NCBI GenBank assembly: GCA_020027965.1
Contig: JAHRHE010000002.1
Coordinates: forward strand, 1 to 59,951
Direction: 5' to 3'
From: Nitrospirota bacterium
GTDB lineage: Bacteria > Nitrospirota > Nitrospiria > Nitrospirales > Nitrospiraceae
Length of the DNA: 59,951 nucleotides
In this document: positions 6,089-17,828 of the stretch, one piece after another
How the letters are laid out: each line of letters opens with the position of its first letter
Numbering within the stretch: the stretch's first letter is position 1
Made by a program: the position numbers and the translations under genes
The notes under the pieces: model-generated
Told to the model about the DNA's origin: nothing
Seen by the model: only the letters and a program-made list of their open reading frames with translations
Databases searched by the model: none

Positions 6089-7018
6089 TCAGTACGCCTG
6101 TTTCTCGAGTGTCGGCACGATCTTCACATCGCCCATGATGCCGAGACCAAAGCGCGGGTTCTCCACCGCCTCGTTGGCATAGAGGCGGCCGGTCGGCGCC
6201 TCGATCTTCGCGTCCAGGGTGGCCTTGCCTTTGGGTTCGATCGTGACCGTGTATTGCTTGGCCCCGCCGATCTGAGGATGCCAGACCATCACCTTGTACG
6301 TTCCAGGCGGGATGTTGTCGATCTCGAAGCGACCGTCCTTGCCGCTTGTCGCATAGTAGGGGTTGTCCACCGCCAGGCCCCAGCTCTCCATGTAAGCATG
6401 GAACCCGCACTGCATCACAAACACGCGTCGCCCCTTTGTCATGTTGACCACTTGCTTCATGGGCTCGCCCGCCAGATGCTTGTGATACTGGGCCGCCAGG
6501 CCGAGGTCCCGGGGATGCAGGGGGTTCATGGGCAGAGGGACATTGAACAGCACTCGAGGGCCGAGCTCCGAGGTCTCGTAGGCCTGGATATCATGCATGA
6601 CCGGATCCATATTGACGACGGTGACCTCGCGCCGATCTCGAACCACGGTGATAAATGGCTTGAAGGAGCAGTCGATCGCCTCGATGCGCGGTGCCTGAAA
6701 GGTGAACGGCTTTCCGCGATCAATTCCCTCGATCGCGACCACCACGTCGCGGAACGCATGGTCCGACCCTATGTTGAAGGCTTGAAGAAGACGCCACCCA
6801 GTGCCGTTCGAGATTCGGCCGCAATAGACCGGGTCGGGGAACGTGACCAGGTTATACCCCTTCGGCCTCGGAACCTCGCCGACCAGCGTCACTGTCCCGG
6901 TTAACGTGCCGCCGTTCATGACCGTGATCTCTTCATACGCCCACCCGGGCGCCGCCGCCAGGAGCCAGATCACGGTCGTGGCTCTCAGACTGAACCGTAC
7001 CAACTCGCTTCTCTTCAT
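6089..7018 (-). CDS. Exported blue-copper/carboxypeptidase-regulatory-like protein
   Basis: 309 residues with a signal peptide cleaved after 'AAAPGWA'. An N-terminal cupredoxin-like region carries a possible copper set: H142 in 'PVMHDIQAYE' and C204, H207, M210 in 'VMQCGFHAYMESW'. A carboxypeptidase-regulatory-like beta domain follows at about residues 215-270 ('GKDGRFEIDNIPPGTYKVMVWHP'). Such proteins are known next to multicopper oxidases and respiratory clusters of nitrifier relatives and probably carry electrons or dock to an oxidase. GAGGAGG sits just upstream of the ATG. The upstream MCO gene is separated by a strong terminator, so this gene and SUMF1 may have a separate promoter that I could not identify. 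Confidence 0.8.
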   Translation of the reverse strand: MKRSELVRFSLRATTVIWLLAAAPGWAYEEITVMNGGTLTGTVTLVGEVPRPKGYNLVTFPDPVYCGRISNGTGWRLLQAFNIGSDHAFRDVVVAIEGIDRGKPFTFQAPRIEAIDCSFKPFITVVRDRREVTVVNMDPVMHDIQAYETSELGPRVLFNVPLPMNPLHPRDLGLAAQYHKHLAGEPMKQVVNMTKGRRVFVMQCGFHAYMESWGLAVDNPYYATSGKDGRFEIDNIPPGTYKVMVWHPQIGGAKQYTVTIEPKGKATLDAKIEAPTGRLYANEAVENPRFGLGIMGDVKIVPTLEKQAY

Positions 7019-7039
7019 TCCGGCCTCCTCTCTCAGGCA

Positions 7040-7123
7040 AGGTTAAGGCTGAGGTTAAGGTTGAGAAAACACGAACAGAGGAACGCAGTTTCCGTCAGTC
7101 TCAACCTTAGCCTCAACCTCAAG
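7040..7123. repeat. Inverted pair of hexamer-phased repeats
   Basis: Four AGGTTA/AGGCTG-type hexamers (7040-7063) face four CTCAAC/CTTAGC-type hexamers (7100-7123), forming an imperfect stem around a 36-bp unique spacer. The same arm sequence recurs at 28315-28386. Confidence 0.65.
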
Positions 7124-7130
7124 CGGCTTT

Positions 7131-7169
7131 AAAAAAATGGGGGAGCTACACGTCGCATGCAGCTCCCCC
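7131..7169 (-). terminator. Rho-independent terminator of the multicopper oxidase gene
   Basis: On the minus strand GGGGGAGCT pairs with AGCTCCCCC (7161-7169 with 7139-7147, 13-nt loop), followed shortly by seven T residues (7131-7137). It starts 27 bp after the MCO stop codon, a textbook intrinsic terminator. The MCO message is probably mostly monocistronic. Confidence 0.85.
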
Positions 7170-7195
7170 GCCTTGGTGTTACTCTGCCAATGCGA

Positions 7196-10100
7196 CTACT
7201 TCAGCGCCGTCGGCACCACCTGAAGCTGCTCCGGCTGAAGCTGCGCGCGCTTCGCCCCTACCTCGTCCTTCGACAGTGGCAGGATGCGCTGGTCGCCGGC
7301 CGGCAGCACCCGGAAGTAGCCCCACTGCCCGGACTGCGTGTACGGCAGCCGCTGGTTCGACCAGAGATAGTCGCCCACCAGACGGTACGGGCCGCCCGCG
7401 CCCTGACGCAGGAAGACATCCAGCGTTTCCGAGCCTGAGTACTCGACCACGCTGATCATATCGGCGCCCGGCATGTAGGGTTCGATCGGCCACTCGTGTC
7501 CCTCGACCGCGAACATGCCGTTCTGCTCGTTGTTGGCCCCGATTACGTGAATTCGGACCGGGTCGCCCGCATGCGACTCGATCAGCGGCGTCACCGGATC
7601 CTCGGGCTTATCCACCGCGCAGGGGCGGAACATACGCCCGAGCGAGCAACCCTGCTCCTCCCGGAACTTGTAGGGTTCGGCGCGGTAGTTCACCGACGTC
7701 AGACCCGCCACGTTCTGGACGTAGGGCATGAAGCTGGTCCCGATGATGTTGTCCTCGTCCTGGAAGAAGAGGGCCACATCCCGGTAGTTCACCTTGCCGG
7801 CATTCTCCGGCAGGCTCTGGTCCACGATGACGTCCGCCCTCCAGGCGTTCTTGGTCGAGAGATCCTCGCCGGTCACCGGGTCTCGATACTTGGAGCCCTT
7901 GGGCCCGATGACGACGGCCCCGTACAACCCGTTGCGCGGGTTCGTCACGATGTTGCCGCCATCCCACACCAGGGACGTCGTCTCCTTGTTGGCAGGATGC
8001 GCGTAGTAGGTGTAGGTCCGGCTCTCGCCCGGGCCGATGGTCTGATCGCCGGGGTTGTTCCCGACGTTCAGGCCCAGGGAGTGTTTCGGATCGAAGGCCA
8101 GGCCCGGCGCGAAGAAAGACGCCCGGCTGTTGGCCATCTTGTTCTTCAGGTTCACTTGGATGCAGTCCCCGAGGTTCGCGCGCAGGGTCAGCGGGTTGGG
8201 CATCACCGACCCGGCTACCTTGGTGACTTCCTCCTCGAGGGCGAAGATCTTGCCCTCGGGCACCGACATCTCGATCTTCCGCTCGAAGTCCACCTCGATG
8301 GCCTCCGGCGCCTTGGGGTTCAGCTTCAGCAGGCGGTCCAACGCCACCACGTTGAAGGCCTTCACCGGCGCATCACCGGGGCAGACCGACTGTGGCGCTG
8401 CCGGGATCTCGCCGGACGCGGTTCCGGACGGCAGACGCTTCAGGTCCCGCACCTCCTTCTCCAACACACGGAAGATCCCCCATCCCCCTTCGGCGAAGTG
8501 CGAGCTACGGCCGTTGAAGTGGATGTAGTCTCCCGGCATGCCCTGGAATCCGCCTGCCTTCGTCACCAAGTCATACCGCTCGGCGATCCCAACGTGGATC
8601 GAGTTTTTCCGATTGGCATCCCCGGCATACCGCTCGGTCAGGAACGTGTGCCCTGAGAGGGTCCAGACGTGCGACTCGTTCATGAGCTGGTGCAGCAGGC
8701 GGAACACCACCGTGTCGCCCACGTACGCGCGCAAGAGCGGCGTATCCGGGTCCCCGTGGATGGCGCTGCTGAATAGCTTCGAGGTGTCGGGGTTATTCAC
8801 CAGTCGTCGCGCGAACGGCTCGGCCCGGAAGTTCAGGCCGCTGCCGGTCGTGTGCGTGCCCCCGTTAATGTACTTGTTAGGGGACGCGAGGATCTTGTCC
8901 GGCATGGCGAACGACACGGTTTTCCCGGCCTCCAGCGCGACCTCGACCGGCTGGCCCGGCGGGTTGCCCGCCGTCACCACGTTCACGGTGTGCGGCACCG
9001 TGTCATGGATGGACACCATCAACTCTCGGAAGCTGCCGTTCACGCCGTAGCCCACCGGCTCAACCGTGTGGATGTCGGCGATCGGGCCGCTTCGGATCGG
9101 CTGGCCGGTCTTCGGGTCATGGTACGTGGACCCGAACGGCTCGATGATCACGCTCCCGAACCCGCCGTGCGGCCACGTGGTGGCGCCGAAGGCGTGGTCG
9201 TGCCAGAACACGGTCCCCAGGTCCGAGTCCACCCACCATCGGTACCGGATGAACTCCACGGTGGCGATGTCGTTGCTGGGATGGTCGTGCTTCAGTGGTT
9301 GATAAAAGGTGATCGTGCTACCCTTGATGTCCTTGATCCGGGCGATCTCGAAGCCCTTCACGCTATCCGCTCCGACGAGCAGCTCGGTGTTCACGTGATA
9401 CTGAGCCGCGTTCTTCACCGTGATGGATCTGGCGCCGGCCTTGACCGCCGCCGTCAGCACGGTGTTCATCGGCACCGGCAACCCGTGCTTGCCTTTCTTC
9501 TCCAGCATCGTGAACGGCCGCGCGGACTGCTCGTAGGAGAGCCCGCTGATCACGCCGTCCGACGCCTGGTTGTCGAACTGCATGAAGTGGGGATGAATGT
9601 TAATCTTCGACGACTGGAAGTTGGTGTAGTCGTCGTCATCCCACTCGCTGGTGAGCACCACGTCCACGCAGTCGTACACGTTCGCGCGGATCACCAGCGG
9701 GTACTTAAGGTCATCGTTCTTCCGGACCGCTTGCTCCTCCTCGTGCAGGACGTAGATCAACCCGTCCTTGTCCACGATCGGGGCCTCCTTCCCCTGCTTC
9801 GTGGAGAGGGTGATCGGGAGCCGGATGAAGTGGATGTTGTAGAATTTCCGGTTCGCGTTGTTCGGGCAGAGACTCCAGCGGCCCTGCTCGCCCGGCTTCG
9901 CCGGTTCGGCCGTCCGCTCGCCGGTCTCGTCCTGGTGGATCATGTCCAACCAGGGTGCGCCATTGTGGTTCGGTGGGAACATAATGCGCTTCCCGAAGTG
10001 TGGCTTCACGAGCGGGAAGGAGACCTTGCCGGTCTTAGGTTCAAAGAGGATGGCCGGCCTGGTGCGATCCTCCCATTTGGCGACGGCGGGATACTTCGGA

Positions 10101-12067
10101 TTCACAGCCGTGCTCTCCCGCTCGCCCAGCGCCCTGGTGCCGTCCCACTTCCAGTCCCACACCGTGGCGTCGTAGGCCATGATCTGGCCCTTCTCGTCGT
10201 CCTTATGGCCGGGTTTGCCCATCGTGGGCACCTGGATTTCCACCCAGTCCTTGATCGTGACGATGGCCGGATCAGCCTTCCAGTTGGTCTTCTGTGAGTT
10301 GTCCACGATCTTGAAGGTCTTGCCGAACCAGTCCACGGTCTTGCCGACCAGCTTGTCGGAGGTCACCCCGACAAGCATCCGGCCCTGGCGATCCGGCAGC
10401 TCCCGCATGTCCGGCATGGTGTCGGTGTGGGACTGGCCCACCTGCAGGGTGTTGTAGGTCCGCGCGTAGCCCCACATGCCGGCCACGTAGTGGTGCGCCA
10501 CGTGGCAGTGGAACAGGAAGTCCCCGGCCAATTGCTGGCAGAGACCGGAGCCGCACTCGTTCTCCAGATCCAATGCCTCGGACGGCCCGATCACCTCTAC
10601 GTCCACCCGGTCGGTCTTGGTCCGGACCACCGGATACTTCACCGGCCCATCCTTGGCCAGGGCCCACAGCTCCTGATCCACAGCCCGCGGGCTGCGCGGC
10701 CAGCGGATCGAACCGCCATGCGGATGGTGGGAGTGGAACACTTCCGATCCGCCATGCACGATCCGCCACTTGACCGGATCGCCCAGGTAGGCGCGCGGAA
10801 GCGTCGTGGGAATGTCGCCGAACGTGTAGGCGCTGTAGGCGAGCGACTCGTCTTCGAACCCGAAATACTCGTGCTGCAAGTGCATCTCGTCGATGCCGAA
10901 GGGCTCGCTGCGGTAGTTCAGCGCGCGGCCTCCCGGACGATACGCATCAGTCAGCGGATCGCGCTGGGGCAGGAAGTCCCCTTTCTTGTTCAACGGCCGG
11001 AAGGCTTCATCCCCGATCTCGTGATAGAAGATCACGTGCTCGCGGAAATCCGGCCCCGAGCCGTTGTCGATCATCACCTGCCAGCCGCTCTTGGCCTCGG
11101 TAGCCGGTCCTGTCCCGAGCGGCTCCAGATAGCGGGACCCCTTGGGTTCCACGACGAAGGCCCCGAACAGGCCCATCACCGTCAGCTCACGGTCATTGCT
11201 GTAAGAATGGAACTGCCGGACCCCTTCTTGGATCGAAGGATGAAGGTACCACTCCATTTCGACCGTCTTGCCCGGATCCACGACCGAGTCAGGGTTCGTG
11301 GTAGTGGCGGCCTTGCCGGTTGCACTGATCACCACGCTGGAGCCGTGGATGTGCAGGCTGCCCGCCTCATCCTTCATCTGGTTCCGCAATATGATCCTGA
11401 CGCAATCGCCCTGGTTGCCCCGGATGACCAGCGGCTGGATGGCATCGCCCTGAAGGCCGGTGGTGACGGCGCCAGGGTCAAACCCTTCCTTTTCGCGCGC
11501 GGCCTTGTTCTTGGCCTCCTCCGCCCGGACTTTGTCAATGGTCTCGGTCAGGACATACATGTAGCCGGGGTAGTAATCCAGCCAGCGATTGAGCGTGATC
11601 TCAACCGTGATCATCGAAACGTCGTACTGCTTCACCGGAGCCGCGGACGGGCATTTGCCGCCGGCCAGCGCGACCGGCTCAGCCTTGCTATCGGAGGCCA
11701 GCAAGAAGCTGGAACCATCCTGGCCCATATACTGGTGCATCATGGACATCCCGTTGTACCCGCCGGACGTCCATTGTGCAGAAGCCTGCTGTTCCATCTG
11801 CCGCATGAGGCGATGGTGCTGCAACTCCACTTGCTCGGAGCGGCCGGCCCGCCCCTCGAGCGCGTCCTCCACCCTTGTCTGGCCATTCAGGGCCTCGGCC
11901 CAGTTCGGGCCTGACACAGCGGTCGCATGACCCTGGTGCCCTTCCCCTTCACTCCCCGCCGCGAAGACCGCCGGCGACACCAGCAGGCTGCCAGCAAGCA
12001 GGGCGGCTTGCAGACTCACCGCCGCCTTCGCGGCGCGTCGTCCGCGGTAAATACGTGATGACATCAT
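7196..12067 (-). CDS. Giant periplasmic multicopper oxidase with six cupredoxin-like domains
   Basis: About 1623 residues from ATG 12067, chosen because AGGAGG lies at 12075-12080; the frame opens 42 nt earlier. Numbering below counts from the longer frame. A signal peptide ends near residue 51. Three two-domain modules follow. Module 1 (~160-555) has HIH 253-255, H301, HPH 462-464 and the type 1/trinuclear loop H534-C535-H536 with H540 and M545. Module 2 (~755-1215) has HPH 839-841 and HDH 970-972, but its second half lacks the cysteine (H1140, H1147, H1154 remain). Module 3 (~1245-1605) keeps the fold but none of the ligands. Residues 556-755 form a linker. Size and domain number recall MofA/MnxG-type manganese oxidases; the substrate is unproven, and iron, copper or another metal is possible. 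Confidence 0.88.
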   Translation of the reverse strand: MMSSRIYRGRRAAKAAVSLQAALLAGSLLVSPAVFAAGSEGEGHQGHATAVSGPNWAEALNGQTRVEDALEGRAGRSEQVELQHHRLMRQMEQQASAQWTSGGYNGMSMMHQYMGQDGSSFLLASDSKAEPVALAGGKCPSAAPVKQYDVSMITVEITLNRWLDYYPGYMYVLTETIDKVRAEEAKNKAAREKEGFDPGAVTTGLQGDAIQPLVIRGNQGDCVRIILRNQMKDEAGSLHIHGSSVVISATGKAATTTNPDSVVDPGKTVEMEWYLHPSIQEGVRQFHSYSNDRELTVMGLFGAFVVEPKGSRYLEPLGTGPATEAKSGWQVMIDNGSGPDFREHVIFYHEIGDEAFRPLNKKGDFLPQRDPLTDAYRPGGRALNYRSEPFGIDEMHLQHEYFGFEDESLAYSAYTFGDIPTTLPRAYLGDPVKWRIVHGGSEVFHSHHPHGGSIRWPRSPRAVDQELWALAKDGPVKYPVVRTKTDRVDVEVIGPSEALDLENECGSGLCQQLAGDFLFHCHVAHHYVAGMWGYARTYNTLQVGQSHTDTMPDMRELPDRQGRMLVGVTSDKLVGKTVDWFGKTFKIVDNSQKTNWKADPAIVTIKDWVEIQVPTMGKPGHKDDEKGQIMAYDATVWDWKWDGTRALGERESTAVNPKYPAVAKWEDRTRPAILFEPKTGKVSFPLVKPHFGKRIMFPPNHNGAPWLDMIHQDETGERTAEPAKPGEQGRWSLCPNNANRKFYNIHFIRLPITLSTKQGKEAPIVDKDGLIYVLHEEEQAVRKNDDLKYPLVIRANVYDCVDVVLTSEWDDDDYTNFQSSKINIHPHFMQFDNQASDGVISGLSYEQSARPFTMLEKKGKHGLPVPMNTVLTAAVKAGARSITVKNAAQYHVNTELLVGADSVKGFEIARIKDIKGSTITFYQPLKHDHPSNDIATVEFIRYRWWVDSDLGTVFWHDHAFGATTWPHGGFGSVIIEPFGSTYHDPKTGQPIRSGPIADIHTVEPVGYGVNGSFRELMVSIHDTVPHTVNVVTAGNPPGQPVEVALEAGKTVSFAMPDKILASPNKYINGGTHTTGSGLNFRAEPFARRLVNNPDTSKLFSSAIHGDPDTPLLRAYVGDTVVFRLLHQLMNESHVWTLSGHTFLTERYAGDANRKNSIHVGIAERYDLVTKAGGFQGMPGDYIHFNGRSSHFAEGGWGIFRVLEKEVRDLKRLPSGTASGEIPAAPQSVCPGDAPVKAFNVVALDRLLKLNPKAPEAIEVDFERKIEMSVPEGKIFALEEEVTKVAGSVMPNPLTLRANLGDCIQVNLKNKMANSRASFFAPGLAFDPKHSLGLNVGNNPGDQTIGPGESRTYTYYAHPANKETTSLVWDGGNIVTNPRNGLYGAVVIGPKGSKYRDPVTGEDLSTKNAWRADVIVDQSLPENAGKVNYRDVALFFQDEDNIIGTSFMPYVQNVAGLTSVNYRAEPYKFREEQGCSLGRMFRPCAVDKPEDPVTPLIESHAGDPVRIHVIGANNEQNGMFAVEGHEWPIEPYMPGADMISVVEYSGSETLDVFLRQGAGGPYRLVGDYLWSNQRLPYTQSGQWGYFRVLPAGDQRILPLSKDEVGAKRAQLQPEQLQVVPTALK

Positions 12068-12093
12068 GGCACGGCCTCCTTTTTCTTCTAGCA

Positions 12094-12225
12094 GAGAGCT
12101 AATAGCCAATAGCTAATAGCCCGATTAAGACCAACCCAGAAACACCGGCAGCTCACGAACTGCTCACCTTCCGCCTCCGGCCTCGAGCTCTCTAGCTACG
12201 AGCTGTTCGCTGCTAGCTCTTGGCT
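12094..12225. repeat. Heptamer-phased repeats in the MCO leader region
   Basis: Units of the type AATAGCC/AATAGCT run in 7-bp phase at 12094-12121. GCT triplets spaced almost exactly 7 bp recur from 12187 to 12225. They lie between the predicted transcription start and the MCO start codon, so they would be in the mRNA leader. Confidence 0.6.
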
Positions 12226-12325
12226 ATTGAGAAAGTGCCGGTGAAGGGGCCATCTTTTCAGACGGTCAGGGTCATTCGGAGGCCGGTCCTAGCTACCCTG
12301 CCCTTCACCGGCGTGCTCATTGACC

Positions 12326-12340
12326 GCAACCAACGTGCCA
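12326..12340 (-). promoter_or_regulatory. Sigma-54 (-24/-12) promoter for the multicopper oxidase gene
   Basis: Read on the minus strand, TGGCACG (12340-12334), four bases, then TTGC (12329-12326) matches the sigma-54 consensus TGGCACG-N4-TTGC at every fixed position. Transcription would start near 12314, giving a leader of about 250 nt before the MCO ATG. The adjacent upstream gene encodes a sigma-54 activator. Confidence 0.85.
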
Positions 12341-12448
12341 GGTCTTTGCCTGAAGGCGACTCGACAGGATTTCAACGGTGGAACAGCCACTTAGGGAATG
12401 TTGACACCGAACATGGGGTCCTCGCCACTGGGGCATGATTCCACCCAG

Positions 12449-12455
12449 TTAGACA
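12449..12455. promoter_or_regulatory. Half-site of the presumed activator operator
   Basis: TTAGACA repeats one arm of the palindrome at 12505-12522 and lies between it and the promoter. No matching second arm is present at the same spacing. Confidence 0.3.
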
Positions 12456-12504
12456 GTCCGGCCTCCGTCTATTGGAAGCCCCATGAGAAATCAAAGGGAT
12501 TTTT

Positions 12505-12522
12505 TGTCTAAAGCTTTAGACA
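12505..12522. promoter_or_regulatory. Palindromic upstream activator site (presumed enhancer)
   Basis: TGTCTAAAGCTTTAGACA is an 18-bp perfect palindrome centred about 180 bp upstream of the sigma-54 promoter, the usual distance for bacterial enhancer-binding proteins. It also lies about 120 bp after the stop codon of the PAS-type sigma-54 activator gene, the best candidate to bind it. Confidence 0.65.
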
Positions 12523-12639
12523 GTGGCCAAGCCTGGAGTGGGGCAGAAGGGGGCAACTCCGAATTCACGTGAGGACTGAGGCTGAGGAGGGACTCCACGC
12601 CTTTGCGCCTTAGCGCGATTCAGTCGGGGAGGGCCGGAA

Positions 12640-14058
12640 CTACTGAAGATGGTAGGTGCGCAGCTTGTTATACAAGCCCGCCCGGCTGATTTTCAGGAGA
12701 CGCGCGGCCAGGGCGCGTTTGCCGGCCGCCTGGCGCAGCGCTTCTTCGATGCGGGTCCGCTCGGCGCTCTGGACGGCGGTGCGGACAACAGTGCGAAGGC
12801 AGGGATAAGAAGCTGTGACGGTGCCAGCGACGGAAGGACGCCCCAAGAATAGTTCCAGCCTGAGCTCCGGACCGGGGGCGGTCACCACCGCGCGTTCAAT
12901 CAGATGCTGGAGCTCCCGGACATTGCCCGGCCACGGCGCTTCGGTCAGGGCCTGCATGGCTTCAGGCGTGACGACCCGCACGACCTTGCCATGGCGCTTG
13001 CAGGACGCCTCGAGGAAATGGCGGACCAGCAGCGGGATGTCTTCACGCCGGTCCCTGAGCGGAGGCAGGAGCAGGGGCAAGACCGCCAGACGGTAGTAGA
13101 GGTCTTCGCGAAACGCCCGTGCCTTGACCAGCGCCATCAGATCTTTGTTCGACGCCGAGATGACCCGGACATCCACCTTGGTCGAGCGGCTGGTTCCCAC
13201 CGGCTTGATCTCGCCTTCCTGGAGGACCCGAAGCAGCTTGGCCTGGAATTGTGCGCTGGTGTCTGCGATCTCATCCAGAAAGATCGTGCCGCCGTCGGCC
13301 GCCTCGAACAGGCCCTTCTTCGAGCAGAGCGCGCCGGTGAAGGCCCCCTTCATGTGGCCGAACAGCTCGCTCTCGAGCAAGCTCTCCGGCAGCGAGCCGC
13401 AGTCCACGACGACGAAGGGCTTTTCACGACGGTGACTCAGATGATGGATCGTGCGCGCGACCAACTCCTTGCCGGTCCCGCTCTCACCCTGCAACAGGAC
13501 CGTCGCGTGACTGTCGGCGACCAGCCGGATCATCTCAAACAGCTGCTGCATCGGTGCACTCTGGCCGAGCATGTCCCGCAGGCGAATGGCCCCGGATTCG
13601 GAGGACTCGGTCGATTCAGAGCTTGCCTGGTCCGGTGGGCTTCCGACGTGACCTCGATCTCCACTCTCCTTCAGGAGGACGAGCACTGCCGCAGCCTTGC
13701 CTCGGCCGGGCATCAGCGGGAAGGCCTGGACCATTCCGCACGCGCTCCCGTCCTGACCGGTGGAGCAAGACACCGAACGCACCTCGCTGGATTCAAACAC
13801 GGCGATGGCCGGGCAGTGTGGACAGGGGACAGCCCCTCCCAAGACCGCCTCGTAGCATCGGGCCTGACGTGTGCCGTGGACTTCCCGTTCGGCGCTGGAC
13901 CAGGCCGACTCGTTGGCGTAGATGATCGTGAACTCCCGGTCGAGAACCATGACCCGGTCGGAGACTTGATCCGCAAGCAGTCGCAATGCTTCCAGTCGGG
14001 CCGCGAGGATGGGGTCGGTCACGGGGGGATTGGAACAGTCTGGTTGAGATCCGGCCAT
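12640..14058 (-). CDS. PAS-domain sigma-54-dependent transcriptional activator
   Basis: 472 residues. The N-terminal PAS domain (about 22-130) has a cysteine cluster: C68, the CPHC pair C79/C82, C98 and C107, suggesting redox or metal sensing. The central AAA+ domain (about 165-400) has Walker A GESGTGKE (191-198), the sigma-54 contact loop GAFTGA (238-243), Walker B 'GGTIFLDEI' (257-264) and 'GNVREL'. A Fis-type helix-turn-helix ends the protein ('[21 protein letters not shown]'). There is no receiver domain, so its signal is sensed directly. It lies 36 bp after the lone receiver gene and directly upstream of the sigma-54-controlled MCO gene, so it probably activates that promoter. Confidence 0.92.
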
Positions 14059-14094
14059 CTCGATCCCTCAGAACTGACTCAATGGATCAATGAC

Positions 14095-14493
14095 TCAATC
14101 GGCACTTCGGCCCGCAGGGCCGGTACTGTTCAGCAACCGGATCACGGCCTCCTTCAGGTCCGCGATCCTGACCGGCTTGTCGAAATAGGCGGCCACGCCG
14201 GTTCGTAATGCGTCGGCTTTGGTTTTGGCGTCACCGAATGCGGTCATGAGGATAATGGGAGAGCGCGGCGCCAGGGTTTTCAAACGTATCACATAGTCGA
14301 GCCCCCCGGCGGGCATCCGGAGGTCCGTGAGAATGAGATCCGGAAGAGATTCACTGATCCGCTGCAGGGCCTCATCGCCGTCGCCGGCTTCCACTATGCG
14401 GAGCCCCAGGTCCCAGAGCTCGTCGCAGAGGAGGCTTCGCATGGCTTGATCATCTTCTACCAGGAGCAACACCGTAGGCCTCTTGGTCTCCAT
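14095..14493 (-). CDS. Single-domain response regulator (receiver only)
   Basis: 132 residues forming one CheY-like receiver: acidic pair 'LVEDD' near residue 15, phospho-acceptor D57 in 'LILTDLRMP', switch threonine in 'ILMTAFGD', and 'YFDKPV' with the conserved lysine. No output domain. It probably relays phosphate or binds a partner, and is co-transcribed with the PAS activator 36 bp downstream. The globin-coupled kinase encoded 315 bp upstream is a plausible phosphodonor. Confidence 0.88.
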   Translation of the reverse strand: METKRPTVLLLVEDDQAMRSLLCDELWDLGLRIVEAGDGDEALQRISESLPDLILTDLRMPAGGLDYVIRLKTLAPRSPIILMTAFGDAKTKADALRTGVAAYFDKPVRIADLKEAVIRLLNSTGPAGRSAD

Positions 14494-14729
14494 GCCGTCC
14501 TAGGTCTCCGAGGCGTACCGCGTGAGCTACACAGGACCGGCCTGAGCGTATTGAGTGAGCAATCGCTATGCCCGGAGGGTGCGGATTAGAAGTATCAAAA
14601 TAAGCTGCAATTAAGAGGGCTTGTGTCACACGATCGGGAGAGGGCCAAGGCAGTCGAAATGGAAGGTTGCGGACAAAGACCCCACTAGGCTGACTTCGCC
14701 CTGGCGCAGGATGCCACACTCTGGGGAGC

Positions 14730-14821
14730 GAATAGCGGGTAGCCAGCAGTGAATAGCAATGGGCGAAACGCCGGCTAACTTCCCCTGCTACTCGCTATTG
14801 GCTGCTAGCTATTCGCTTAGC
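14730..14821. repeat. Inverted pair of heptamer arrays at the kinase 3' end
   Basis: GAATAGC-type heptamers at 14730-14757 face GCTATTC-type heptamers at 14787-14821, in phase and roughly complementary. The last codons and stop of the histidine kinase lie inside the right arm. The rest of the 315-bp gap (14494-14808) shows no gene and no clear promoter. Confidence 0.65.
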
Positions 14822-16413
14822 GGAAGCGTGATTGTGAACGTGGAGCCGCGGCCAGGTTCGCTGTCGACCTCGATCGAGCCGCCGTGCTCCTGGATGATGC
14901 CCTGCACCACAGTGAGCCCCAGTCCTGTGCCTTTGCCGACCTCCTTGGTCGTGAAGAAGGGAACGAAGATCTTCTCGAGGTCCTCCCTGGGGATTCCATG
15001 TCCCGTATCGGTGACCGTCAGCGTAATCTGCTGACCCTTCAGTCTGAGGCCGAGCCGAAGGATGCCGCCTTCCGGCATCGCGTGAATGGCGTTGATCACG
15101 AGGTTCAAGAGCACTTGGCTCATCTGGTCGGGATCGGCGTGAACGGGGGGCAGGGAGGGAGCAAACACGGTTTCCACCTGGATCCGGTGTCGAGCCAGGC
15201 GTTCCCGGAGCACCTCCAGGATGTCCTGGACCGTCCAACTGATGTCCATCGGCCGCCGTTCGCTCGGCCGCCGCCGGGCGAAGGTGAGCAACTGGTTCAT
15301 GATTTTGGTGATGCGTTCGACTTGCCCAACAATCGTCTCCAGCCCCTTCTTGGTCGTCTCTTCCTGGGTCCGCTGCATCAGGTACTCGGCCCGGCCGAGG
15401 ATCACGTTCATGGGGGTGCCGATCTCATGGGCCATCCCGGCCGCCAGCGTCCCCAGCTCGGCCAACCGCTCGGTCCGGAGAAGCTGGTCCTGCACCCGTG
15501 TCATCTCCGTGATGTCGAGCCCGGTGCCGATGATATACTCGACCGCCCCCGTCCTGTCGAGGATGGCCGTGTTCGTCCACGAAATGAGCCGCCGAGCCCC
15601 ATCCTTGGCCACCCAGTAGTTTTCGTGCCGATTGGGAGCATCGCCGCCACGCAGCGTCTCGAAGACGGCTCGGACCGGTCCCACCTCTTCCGGAAGGAGG
15701 AACAGATCCCAGAGAGCCCTGCCCCGGACTTCCTCGAGGGAGTACCCGGTTGCCAGTTCACAGGCTCGATTGAAGCGGACGATCCGCCCCTCGGTATCCA
15801 ACACGACCACCAGCGCCCCGGCCGTCTCAAGGACCGCCGAGATGAAGTCGCGCTCTTTCTGCAGATCTTTGCTTCTCTTGTCCAGGCCCTTTTCCAGCTC
15901 TCGGCTCAGCTCGGCAAGCTGGCGATTGACGAACTCCAGCTGCGCGGATGATTTCGTGATATAGGATTCGATCGCCAGCCCGATGTCGAGGAACACCACC
16001 TTCGTGAGGGCGATTCTGAGGAACTGACACTGGGCGGGACGATCGTGGAACTCTTTGAAGATCAGCGGATGCAGCAGGTTCAGATAGAGCGCATAGGCGC
16101 CGAGGTACCACTGGGGCGTGAGCCCAATGCGGTTGTGGACTTCGCCTATCCTCAATCGCTCGTCTCGATACTGCTCGTCATAGGGACCGGTCACCAGTGA
16201 GAGGAGGTATCGCTTCTGCGCCTGCTTGAGCCGGGTGGTGATCAGTTCGTCCGACAACAGCCGCCGCGTCTCCGGGAACTGGAGCAAATGCCGATAAAAT
16301 GTCTCCACCAGGCCGTCCGCGTGCTGGACCATCAGCGGATGAAGCTGCTTGAGCGCGGTCTCCTCCTCATCCGTGAGGCGCAGATAGTTTTTCCGGAGCT
16401 GCCAGTCGGTCAT
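14809..16413 (-). CDS. Globin-coupled PAS histidine kinase (oxygen/redox sensor)
   Basis: 534 residues without membrane segments. Residues 1-160 form a protoglobin/globin-coupled sensor domain; H93 in 'EVHNRIGLTPQWYLGAY' is the expected proximal haem ligand. A short coiled coil (160-190), a PAS domain (about 190-310), a HisKA domain with phospho-accepting H329 ('GMAHEIGTPMN') and a HATPase domain ('NLVINAIHAMPEGG', 'DTGHGIP', 'GKGTGLGLTVVQGI') follow. It should sense oxygen or another haem ligand in the cytoplasm and phosphorylate the NtrC-type regulator encoded 29 bp upstream, and perhaps the lone receiver downstream. The ribosome site is weak. Confidence 0.9.
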   Translation of the reverse strand: MTDWQLRKNYLRLTDEEETALKQLHPLMVQHADGLVETFYRHLLQFPETRRLLSDELITTRLKQAQKRYLLSLVTGPYDEQYRDERLRIGEVHNRIGLTPQWYLGAYALYLNLLHPLIFKEFHDRPAQCQFLRIALTKVVFLDIGLAIESYITKSSAQLEFVNRQLAELSRELEKGLDKRSKDLQKERDFISAVLETAGALVVVLDTEGRIVRFNRACELATGYSLEEVRGRALWDLFLLPEEVGPVRAVFETLRGGDAPNRHENYWVAKDGARRLISWTNTAILDRTGAVEYIIGTGLDITEMTRVQDQLLRTERLAELGTLAAGMAHEIGTPMNVILGRAEYLMQRTQEETTKKGLETIVGQVERITKIMNQLLTFARRRPSERRPMDISWTVQDILEVLRERLARHRIQVETVFAPSLPPVHADPDQMSQVLLNLVINAIHAMPEGGILRLGLRLKGQQITLTVTDTGHGIPREDLEKIFVPFFTTKEVGKGTGLGLTVVQGIIQEHGGSIEVDSEPGRGSTFTITLPLSE

Positions 16414-16442: not shown

Positions 16443-17828
16443 TCATGCCCCGCGCCGCTCACCTTTCTGGTCGATTTCTGCCAGCTTGCGGTACAGTGTC
16501 TTCCGGTCGATCCCCAGGACCTGGGCCGCCTGGTATTTGTTGCCACCGGTCTTCTCGAGGATCCGCTGAATGTATTCCTGTTCGACCTCCTGCAACGGCA
16601 GCGTGCGTTCGGCCGCCTCGTCAAGGACCCGTCGCTCTCCGCGCGCGCCCTGGACGGCGGGAGGCAAATCTTGAGGAAGAATCTTCTCACCGCGCGCCAA
16701 CGTCACCGCGCGCTCGATGACGTTCTCGAGTTCACGGACGTTTCCAGGCCACGGGTAATCCATCAAGAGCGCCAGGGCGGACTCGCTCATCGCGTGGGGT
16801 TCCTTCTGGCCAGCCTCGGCGCATTTGCGGAGGAAGGCGTCCACCAGCAGCGGGATGTCCTCGCGACGATCCCGGAGGGGCGGCATGCGGATCTCGATGA
16901 CGTTCAGGCGGTAATACAAGTCTTCGCGAAACCGCTTGGCCTTCACTTCGTCGGCCAGCGCCAAGTTGGTCGCGGCGATGATCCGCACATCCACCGGCAC
17001 GGCGCGAGTGGCTCCGACGCGGCGAATCTCCCGCTCCTGGATGGCCCGCAGCAGCTTGGCTTGCAGCATCAGCGGGAGCTCGCTGATCTCGTCCAGAAAG
17101 AGCGTGCCGCCGCTGGCTTCCTCGAAGAGCCCCCGCTTGTCGGACTTGGCGTCGGTGAAGGCGCCTTTCGTGTGACCGAACAGTTCACTCTCCAATAACG
17201 TGTCCGGAATGGCCGCGCAGTTCACCGGCACGAAGGGGGCGTCCCGCCTCTCACTATTGTAATGGATCGCCTTGGCGACCAGCTCCTTCCCGGTTCCGCT
17301 CTCGCCCGTGATCAGGACGTTGGTCGAGCTGTCGGCCACCCGTCGGATGAGGTCGAAGACCTCGCGCATGGGCTTGCTCTTCCCCAGAATCTGGTGGAAG
17401 CTGTACTCCTTGCGGACCTCGCGCCGGAGACGGTTGACCTCGCGCCGAAGCACAGCCTCCTGCAGCGCCTTCTCGGTGACCAGGATGAGTTCCTCGCTCT
17501 TCACGGGCTTGGTGAGATAATCGTAGGCGCCCTGCTTCATGGCCGCGATCGCGGTCTCCACCGATCCAAAGGCCGTCATGAGGATCACATTCGTATCCGG
17601 GTAAGCCCGCTTCACCTCCGCCAGCAGCTCGATCCCCGGCATCTCTCTCATGCGAAGGTCCGTGAGCACCACCTCATAATCCTCTTCGCCCATCCGTTTC
17701 AGCGCCTCGCGTCCACTTTGCGCGACCGTCACCTGATGGCCCCGCCCCTGCAGCACGTCCCGGATCAATGCCCGCATCTCCGCGTCATCATCCACGACGA
17801 GAATGGATCCGGTCTCCTCCGGGCTCAT
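16443..17828 (-). CDS. NtrC/AtoC-family sigma-54 response regulator
   Basis: 461 residues: receiver domain (D57 in 'VVLTDLRMREMPG'), AAA+ domain with Walker A GESGTGKE, a GAFTDA form of the sigma-54 contact loop, Walker B 'GGTLFLDEI', 'GNVRELENVIERA', and a C-terminal Fis-type helix-turn-helix ('KYQAAQVLGIDRKTLYRKLAEI'). It has a good ribosome site (AAGGAGAGG). It is the first gene of a pair with the globin-coupled kinase 29 bp downstream, so the two probably form a two-component system. Targets are unknown; the MCO promoter is one possibility alongside the PAS activator. Confidence 0.92.
   Translation of the reverse strand: MSPEETGSILVVDDDAEMRALIRDVLQGRGHQVTVAQSGREALKRMGEEDYEVVLTDLRMREMPGIELLAEVKRAYPDTNVILMTAFGSVETAIAAMKQGAYDYLTKPVKSEELILVTEKALQEAVLRREVNRLRREVRKEYSFHQILGKSKPMREVFDLIRRVADSSTNVLITGESGTGKELVAKAIHYNSERRDAPFVPVNCAAIPDTLLESELFGHTKGAFTDAKSDKRGLFEEASGGTLFLDEISELPLMLQAKLLRAIQEREIRRVGATRAVPVDVRIIAATNLALADEVKAKRFREDLYYRLNVIEIRMPPLRDRREDIPLLVDAFLRKCAEAGQKEPHAMSESALALLMDYPWPGNVRELENVIERAVTLARGEKILPQDLPPAVQGARGERRVLDEAAERTLPLQEVEQEYIQRILEKTGGNKYQAAQVLGIDRKTLYRKLAEIDQKGERRGA

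Follow-up and report, generated by a model that had tools for sequence, protein, structure and literature searches.

In Pseudomonas, both rpoN and the sigma-54-type regulator MnxR are needed for Mn(II) oxidation by multicopper oxidases (MCOs) of the MnxG/McoA type (PMC11409713). Sigma-54-type regulation is also found within the genus Nitrospira, where such regulators lie near the nxr genes of Nitrospira moscoviensis, with target genes different from those considered here (PMC6606698). A putative MCO, periplasmic and conserved in Nitrospira and Nitrospina, Ca. N. defluvii included, is described as resembling the Mn oxidase of Bacillus SG-1 and is discussed as protection against reactive oxygen; the accessible passages of that paper mention neither a promoter, nor a leader RNA, nor cross-talk between paralogues (PMC3578206). 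This MCO probably belongs to the same giant oxidase family as the enzyme described below. Precedents also exist for leaders with a second function, and in Listeria SreA is a leader-derived RNA that acts in trans on another mRNA. The Vibrio malK 5′-UTR RNA Vsr217 is likewise presented, in the accessible passages of the source, as a leader-derived trans-acting small RNA (PMC8265627).

How does the giant oxidase locus of Nitrospirota compare with these systems? The window analyzed here is a stretch of 59,951 nucleotides from a Nitrospirota bacterium (contig JAHRHE010000002.1). A first-pass annotation of this DNA had placed a multicopper oxidase gene downstream of a sigma-54 promoter and an intrinsic terminator at its end. 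Both are present: the open reading frame at 12067-7196 encodes a giant MnxG-like protein of 1623 aa with Cu-oxidase domains (type-A oxidase, hereafter oxidase A; 7196..12067, minus strand), and an intrinsic-terminator-like hairpin with a 14-pair stem, a 3-nt loop and a T-run lies 3′ of it (7139..7169, minus strand). Oxidase A is homologous to Bacillus MnxG (PDB 9bxa, E 4.7e-86; 1227 aa in the PDB chain) and scores 119.5 bits against the NCBIfam MnxG model NF041487, which has an equivalog cut-off of 3100; it is an MnxG homolog outside NCBIfam's MnxG family. Relatives of the giant oxidase were found in 146/147 Nitrospiraceae genomes in a family-wide search, and Ca. Nitrospira defluvii FP929003.1 is among the loci taken from named records. 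The genome of the window (3.6 Mb) holds a second oxidase, type B (hereafter oxidase B), with 74% identity to oxidase A.

Several features of the wider family and neighborhood were also recorded. Extra oxidase types, C1 and C2 (~55% identical), lie near each other in some genomes (L105, L106, and L107), with the leader RNA described below at both genes and sigma-54 sites at C1 only. A tandem pair of oxidase genes occurs in genome G382 (L111), and a sigma-54 promoter and a leader RNA precede each of the two. An oxidase of the Nitrospira type (66% identical) occurs in a record titled Opitutales bacterium (L299), which is probably a mis-binned contig. In the window, a histidine kinase with an N-terminal protoglobin domain, of the haem-based gas sensor type, and a PAS domain (14809-16413, minus strand) has two regulators as neighbors, one a single-domain response regulator (14095-14493) and the other of the NtrC type (16443-17828); this neighborhood may link oxygen or NO sensing to the oxidase locus.

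Transcription of oxidase A is predicted to start near 12314 (minus strand), and in an alignment of type-A upstream DNA the block that follows the promoter is far more conserved than its flanks. This block corresponds to a structured leader RNA of ~76 nt (12237..12312, minus strand), a three-way junction beginning around position +3 of the predicted transcript, which in the window folds with an MFE of -45.3 kcal/mol (z -5.05). In an alignment of 73 sequences fitted to the structure, compensatory changes are seen in 20 of 23 pairs and 96.8% of cells are paired, compared with 39-55% when the partners are slid; covariation scores 0.385, where slid partners reach no more than 0.117 (0/500 shuffles). 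An independent MAFFT alignment of the 44 type-A leaders gives compensatory changes in 11/22 pairs, and the fold is very well supported. The leader shares with riboswitches a conserved aptamer-like fold in the 5′ UTR. Comparison with Rfam covariance models returned no family, only a chance-level match to HOTTIP_3 (10 bits, where the gathering score is 50), and identity with a known Rfam element was rejected.

A covariance model search located the leader RNA in 114/396 genomes of the phylum, confined to two bacterial families. All extra copies with an examinable downstream gene precede giant oxidase genes, an association that leaves out L112, whose contig ends too early to show the downstream gene. 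Upstream of type-B genes the RNA is absent even with filters off, save for weak low-scoring matches. The type-C2 oxidases retain the leader and are missing the sigma-54 sites, and promoter and leader RNA are therefore separate modules. Directly 3′ of the closing stem P1 is a U-rich stretch (12227..12236, minus strand), which may mark the end of a small RNA; it averages 4.7 T/10 nt in 44 sequences versus 1.6 elsewhere in the UTR, and is weak in the window itself (ACTTTCTCAA). Between leader and Shine-Dalgarno (SD), positions 12089-12226 of the window carry imperfect repeats and inverted repeats (TAGCTAATAGC-like), which are apparently lineage-specific.

Within the fold, the leader presents a near-invariant core, GGACCGGCCUCC (12278..12289, minus strand), as a 3-bp hairpin with the loop CCGGCC. 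The core is invariant in the 44 type-A leaders, has a few variants elsewhere, and contains CCUCC, the anti-SD sequence. It is the exact 12-nt complement of the oxidase B ribosome-binding site, GGAGGCCGGUCC-AUG: in the same genome the start region of oxidase B reads GGAGGCCGGTCC-ATG, in exact reverse complementarity to the core GGACCGGCCTCC, and the match reaches the bases immediately 5′ of the AUG. Oxidase B has no leader RNA, no sigma-54 sites, and a sigma-70-like promoter (TTGACA-18-TATCGT). Apart from the leader and gene B, this genome has just one further site with the 12-mer or its complement. The predicted core duplex amounts to -29.2 kcal/mol with B and -20.8 kcal/mol with A, compared with a best value of -21.7 and a median of -13.8 kcal/mol among 135 other start regions. 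The 12-nt core and the type-B start region thus provide what characterizes antisense small RNAs, a conserved seed complementary to the ribosome-binding site of a target.

The B site is itself widely kept. At 19 of the 21 type-B genes first examined, GGAGGCCGGTCC-ATG (or -AATG) is exact; one of the two inexact sites has a G-U-compatible change (G080) and the other belongs to an RNA-less genome (G050). Of the 147 family genomes, 78 have GGAGGCCGGTCC with a nearby ATG, as a rule in a single copy and for the most part at oxidase B, against ~4 matches for a reversed control pattern. Sites with at least two mismatches were found in 9/16 RNA-less genomes versus 0/36 RNA-bearing ones (Fisher p 0.0003), a value that is no independent test because the RNA-less genomes cluster in the phylogeny and the RNA-bearing set was partly hand-picked and enriched for inexact sites. 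Three RNA-less genomes (G247, G253, and G284), in which no leader RNA was found, keep the exact B site. Since the core-B complementarity is nearly invariant, covariation is unable to test it. In some lineages the B site is altered (GGAGGCGGTTCC), and a compensatory change of their core was also considered and rejected, as no such core was found upstream of their oxidase genes.

What could a leader of this kind do? The reading that we find somewhat probable is that the activator and sigma-54 induce oxidase A, and that the leader then represses oxidase B in trans and restrains oxidase A in cis. The 5′ end of the oxidase A mRNA would be the three-way-junction RNA, displaying the core as a weak 3-bp hairpin free to pair over 12 nt with the SD and start region of oxidase B and, more weakly, over 8 nt with the SD of oxidase A. 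Through the core-B pairing, induction of oxidase A would thereby bring repression of oxidase B, possibly carried by a small RNA that derives from the leader and terminates at the U-rich stretch 3′ of P1; pairing with its own SD would restrain oxidase A. Comparison among relatives establishes the fold, the association with oxidase genes and the complementarity, and we infer small-RNA release and translational repression. Support for the trans step on oxidase B is moderate. As with SreA and Vsr217, a 5′ leader RNA would act on another mRNA; the proposed target here differs in being a paralog of the leader's own gene, and in being predicted from sequence.

The main rival to this switch is a leader that acts purely in cis, a riboswitch-like or protein-bound element controlling translation or attenuation of its own mRNA, in which the core sequesters the SD of oxidase A and the B match is a by-product of related start regions. 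We regard this as unlikely. The leader sits in the 5′ UTR of an oxidase gene in all cases examined, including the copies without sigma-54 sites, and the oxidase A SD, GGAGGCCG (12072..12079, minus strand), is an 8-nt complement of the core. This SD, GGAGGCC(G), complements the core over 7-8 nt in 43/44 relatives, and in the sister family the SD of most genes includes GGAGGCCGG. In 27/44 type-A 5′ UTRs (e.g., L040 and L060) a second core complement of 8-10 nt lies between leader and SD and could act as a competing partner for the core. However, the B match is longer, at 12 nt, and runs up to the AUG of a gene that has no leader, and the core is predicted to pair more strongly with B than with A. 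Type-C2 copies, moreover, often have an SD reduced to GGAGG or GGAGGC(U), which sits poorly with a function confined to cis. Beyond the oxidase genes, the gene after the oxidase in the window (7016-7028, minus strand) also has GGAGGCCGG before its ATG. Among relatives, a complement of at least 9 nt at the gene after the oxidase occurs in only 10/51 loci, and it was therefore rejected as a general feature.

Less probable still, and to our minds improbable, is that the promoter alone matters, the leader being a stabilizing 5′ structure and the SD complementarity a strong anti-SD motif or the legacy of shared ancestry of the two oxidase start regions. The CCUCC within the core and the exact B site kept in the three RNA-less genomes are consistent with this, as is the occurrence of GGAGGCCG before other genes. 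In the genome of the window it precedes ATG above background (58 vs 14), and among GGAGG start sites from loci rich in oxidases ~28% also read CCG; both counts weigh against the switch, since the motif may have further targets or a different cause. Yet the CCG extension is found at just 1/69 GGAGG sites across 400 kb sampled from the genome of a relative (G063), and on this count GGAGGCCG was rejected as merely a common SD form, its excess in the genome of the window notwithstanding. It also counts against this reading that the 12-nt core is near-invariant inside a fold that is otherwise variable and covarying.

The promoter itself is well supported. The first-pass annotation had reported TGGCACG-N4-TTGC with a match at every fixed base, and TGGCACG-TTGG-TTGC is indeed found there as an exact sigma-54 -24/-12 element (12326..12340, minus strand), the single occurrence of the exact pattern in the whole 3.6 Mb genome. 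Upstream DNA was extracted for 44 type-A orthologs, all of which have a -24/-12 element. Because the search accepted only candidates with GG and GC, the informative columns are the others, and among these the CA after GG is kept in 43/44 at each position and the TT before GC in 42/44 and 44/44. The promoter shifts in position relative to the gene (-234 to -468), and the upstream sites shift along with it. The same promoter and the first upstream site (UAS1, below) are found at sister-family oxidases and type-C1 oxidases, with none at type-C2. The locus combines three features expected of sigma-54 control: GG at -24 and GC at -12, sites ~100-200 bp upstream, and an AAA+ activator with GAFTGA and a helix-turn-helix (HTH). 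That the motifs arose by chance, with oxidase A on a sigma-70 promoter, is very improbable and already contradicted: allowing one mismatch, chance alone would yield the -24/-12 pattern about once in such a window (1.3 matches in shuffles of the window, not significant), but promoter and palindrome are each unique in the genome, both are conserved in 44/44 relatives with fixed spacing, and the sigma-70 promoter was rejected because no such site was found at 6900-14600.

Two putative activator sites lie upstream. An 18-bp palindrome had been noted at 12505-12522, and TGTCTAAAGCTTTAGACA stands there (UAS1; 12505..12522, no strand assigned), and a search of the window allowing 3 mismatches gives no other match (0.01 expected). 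Nor does the genome contain a second match to the consensus TGTCYAA-N4-TTRGACA when 1 mismatch is allowed. In relatives, this consensus is matched at 11 or more of 14 positions in 44/44, against 4/1885 control windows, and the distance from UAS1 to the -24 box is 176-185 bp in 42/44 and 193 and 195 bp in the remaining two. A TTAGACA half-site had been read between palindrome and promoter; it is present, and forms part of a second, degenerate site, TGTCTAACTGGGTGGAAT (UAS2; 12438..12455, minus strand). UAS2 (consensus TGTCTAA-N5-TGGAAA in relatives) occurs in 43/44 relatives, 110-128 bp from the -24 box and mostly at 110-119. The self-contained unit proposed from the sequence is conserved in its architecture of promoter and upstream sites, and the lack of conservation in relatives that had been named as its refutation is not seen; it is incomplete as a two-part unit, since there are two UASs and a structured leader RNA.

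The gene next upstream had been called a PAS-type sigma-54 activator. The activator stands (12640..14058, minus strand; Pfam Sigma54_activat and HTH_8) and the PAS assignment finds no support in Pfam: the only matches are the sigma-54 AAA+ domain, its lid and a Fis-type HTH, with GAFTGA present in the translation. In the Pfam search the N-terminus gave no named domain and no receiver-domain match; it is rich in cysteines, with five conserved ones, of which Cys79, Cys82, and Cys107 are kept in 49/49 orthologs and Cys68 and Cys98 in most. This cysteine-rich domain suggests a metal or redox signal, and would act as a sensor of one or the other. An ortholog of the activator is found in 127/147 Nitrospiraceae genomes at E≤1e-100. 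It often adjoins the oxidase, in many genera, but in many genomes of one genus the gene lies elsewhere and promoter and UAS sites are retained. Promoter, sites and spacing are thus established by comparison; that the activator binds the UASs, and in response to which signal, is a matter of prediction. A metal or redox signal would reach the activator through its N-terminal domain, and the neighboring activator, on UAS1 and UAS2 at ~180 and ~115 bp upstream, would drive sigma-54 polymerase at 12340-12326.

Set beside MnxS1/S2-MnxR and RpoN of Pseudomonas, the likeness is that large MCOs rely on a sigma-54-type activator and rpoN, a reliance that is predicted here (PMC11409713 for Pseudomonas). 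Pseudomonas uses a two-component response regulator (PMC11409713), whereas the Nitrospirota activator has a cysteine-rich N-terminus without a receiver-domain match; the Nitrospirota locus further differs in its tandem UASs, its structured leader RNA and its phylum. The claim that sigma-54 control of a large MCO was undescribed appears to hold for the Nitrospira gene, for which no description was found in the literature searched, and fails for the Mn-oxidizing MCOs of Pseudomonas, whose published sigma-54 dependence weakens its novelty (PMC11409713). For the leader RNA, the literature searched likewise yielded no description.

Almost all of the Nitrospiraceae genomes searched encode the giant oxidase, for which Mn oxidation or protection against reactive oxygen has been suggested as a role. 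One paralog lies under a dedicated sigma-54 activator and the other under a sigma-70-like promoter, with an RNA link indicated between them. Tentatively, the leader may represent a new Nitrospirales RNA family, located at the 5′ end of sigma-54-induced MnxG-like oxidase mRNAs. As an antisense RNA derived from these leaders, it would use its 12-nt seed to switch off a constitutive sister oxidase and so form an RNA-based paralog switch keyed to a metal or redox signal. What is gained is a strongly supported RNA structure outside Rfam together with a precise base-pairing hypothesis, and the signal of the activator offers a route to the function of the oxidase. In Nitrospira-type nitrifying bacteria, the complementarity suggests that switching on oxidase A turns oxidase B down.
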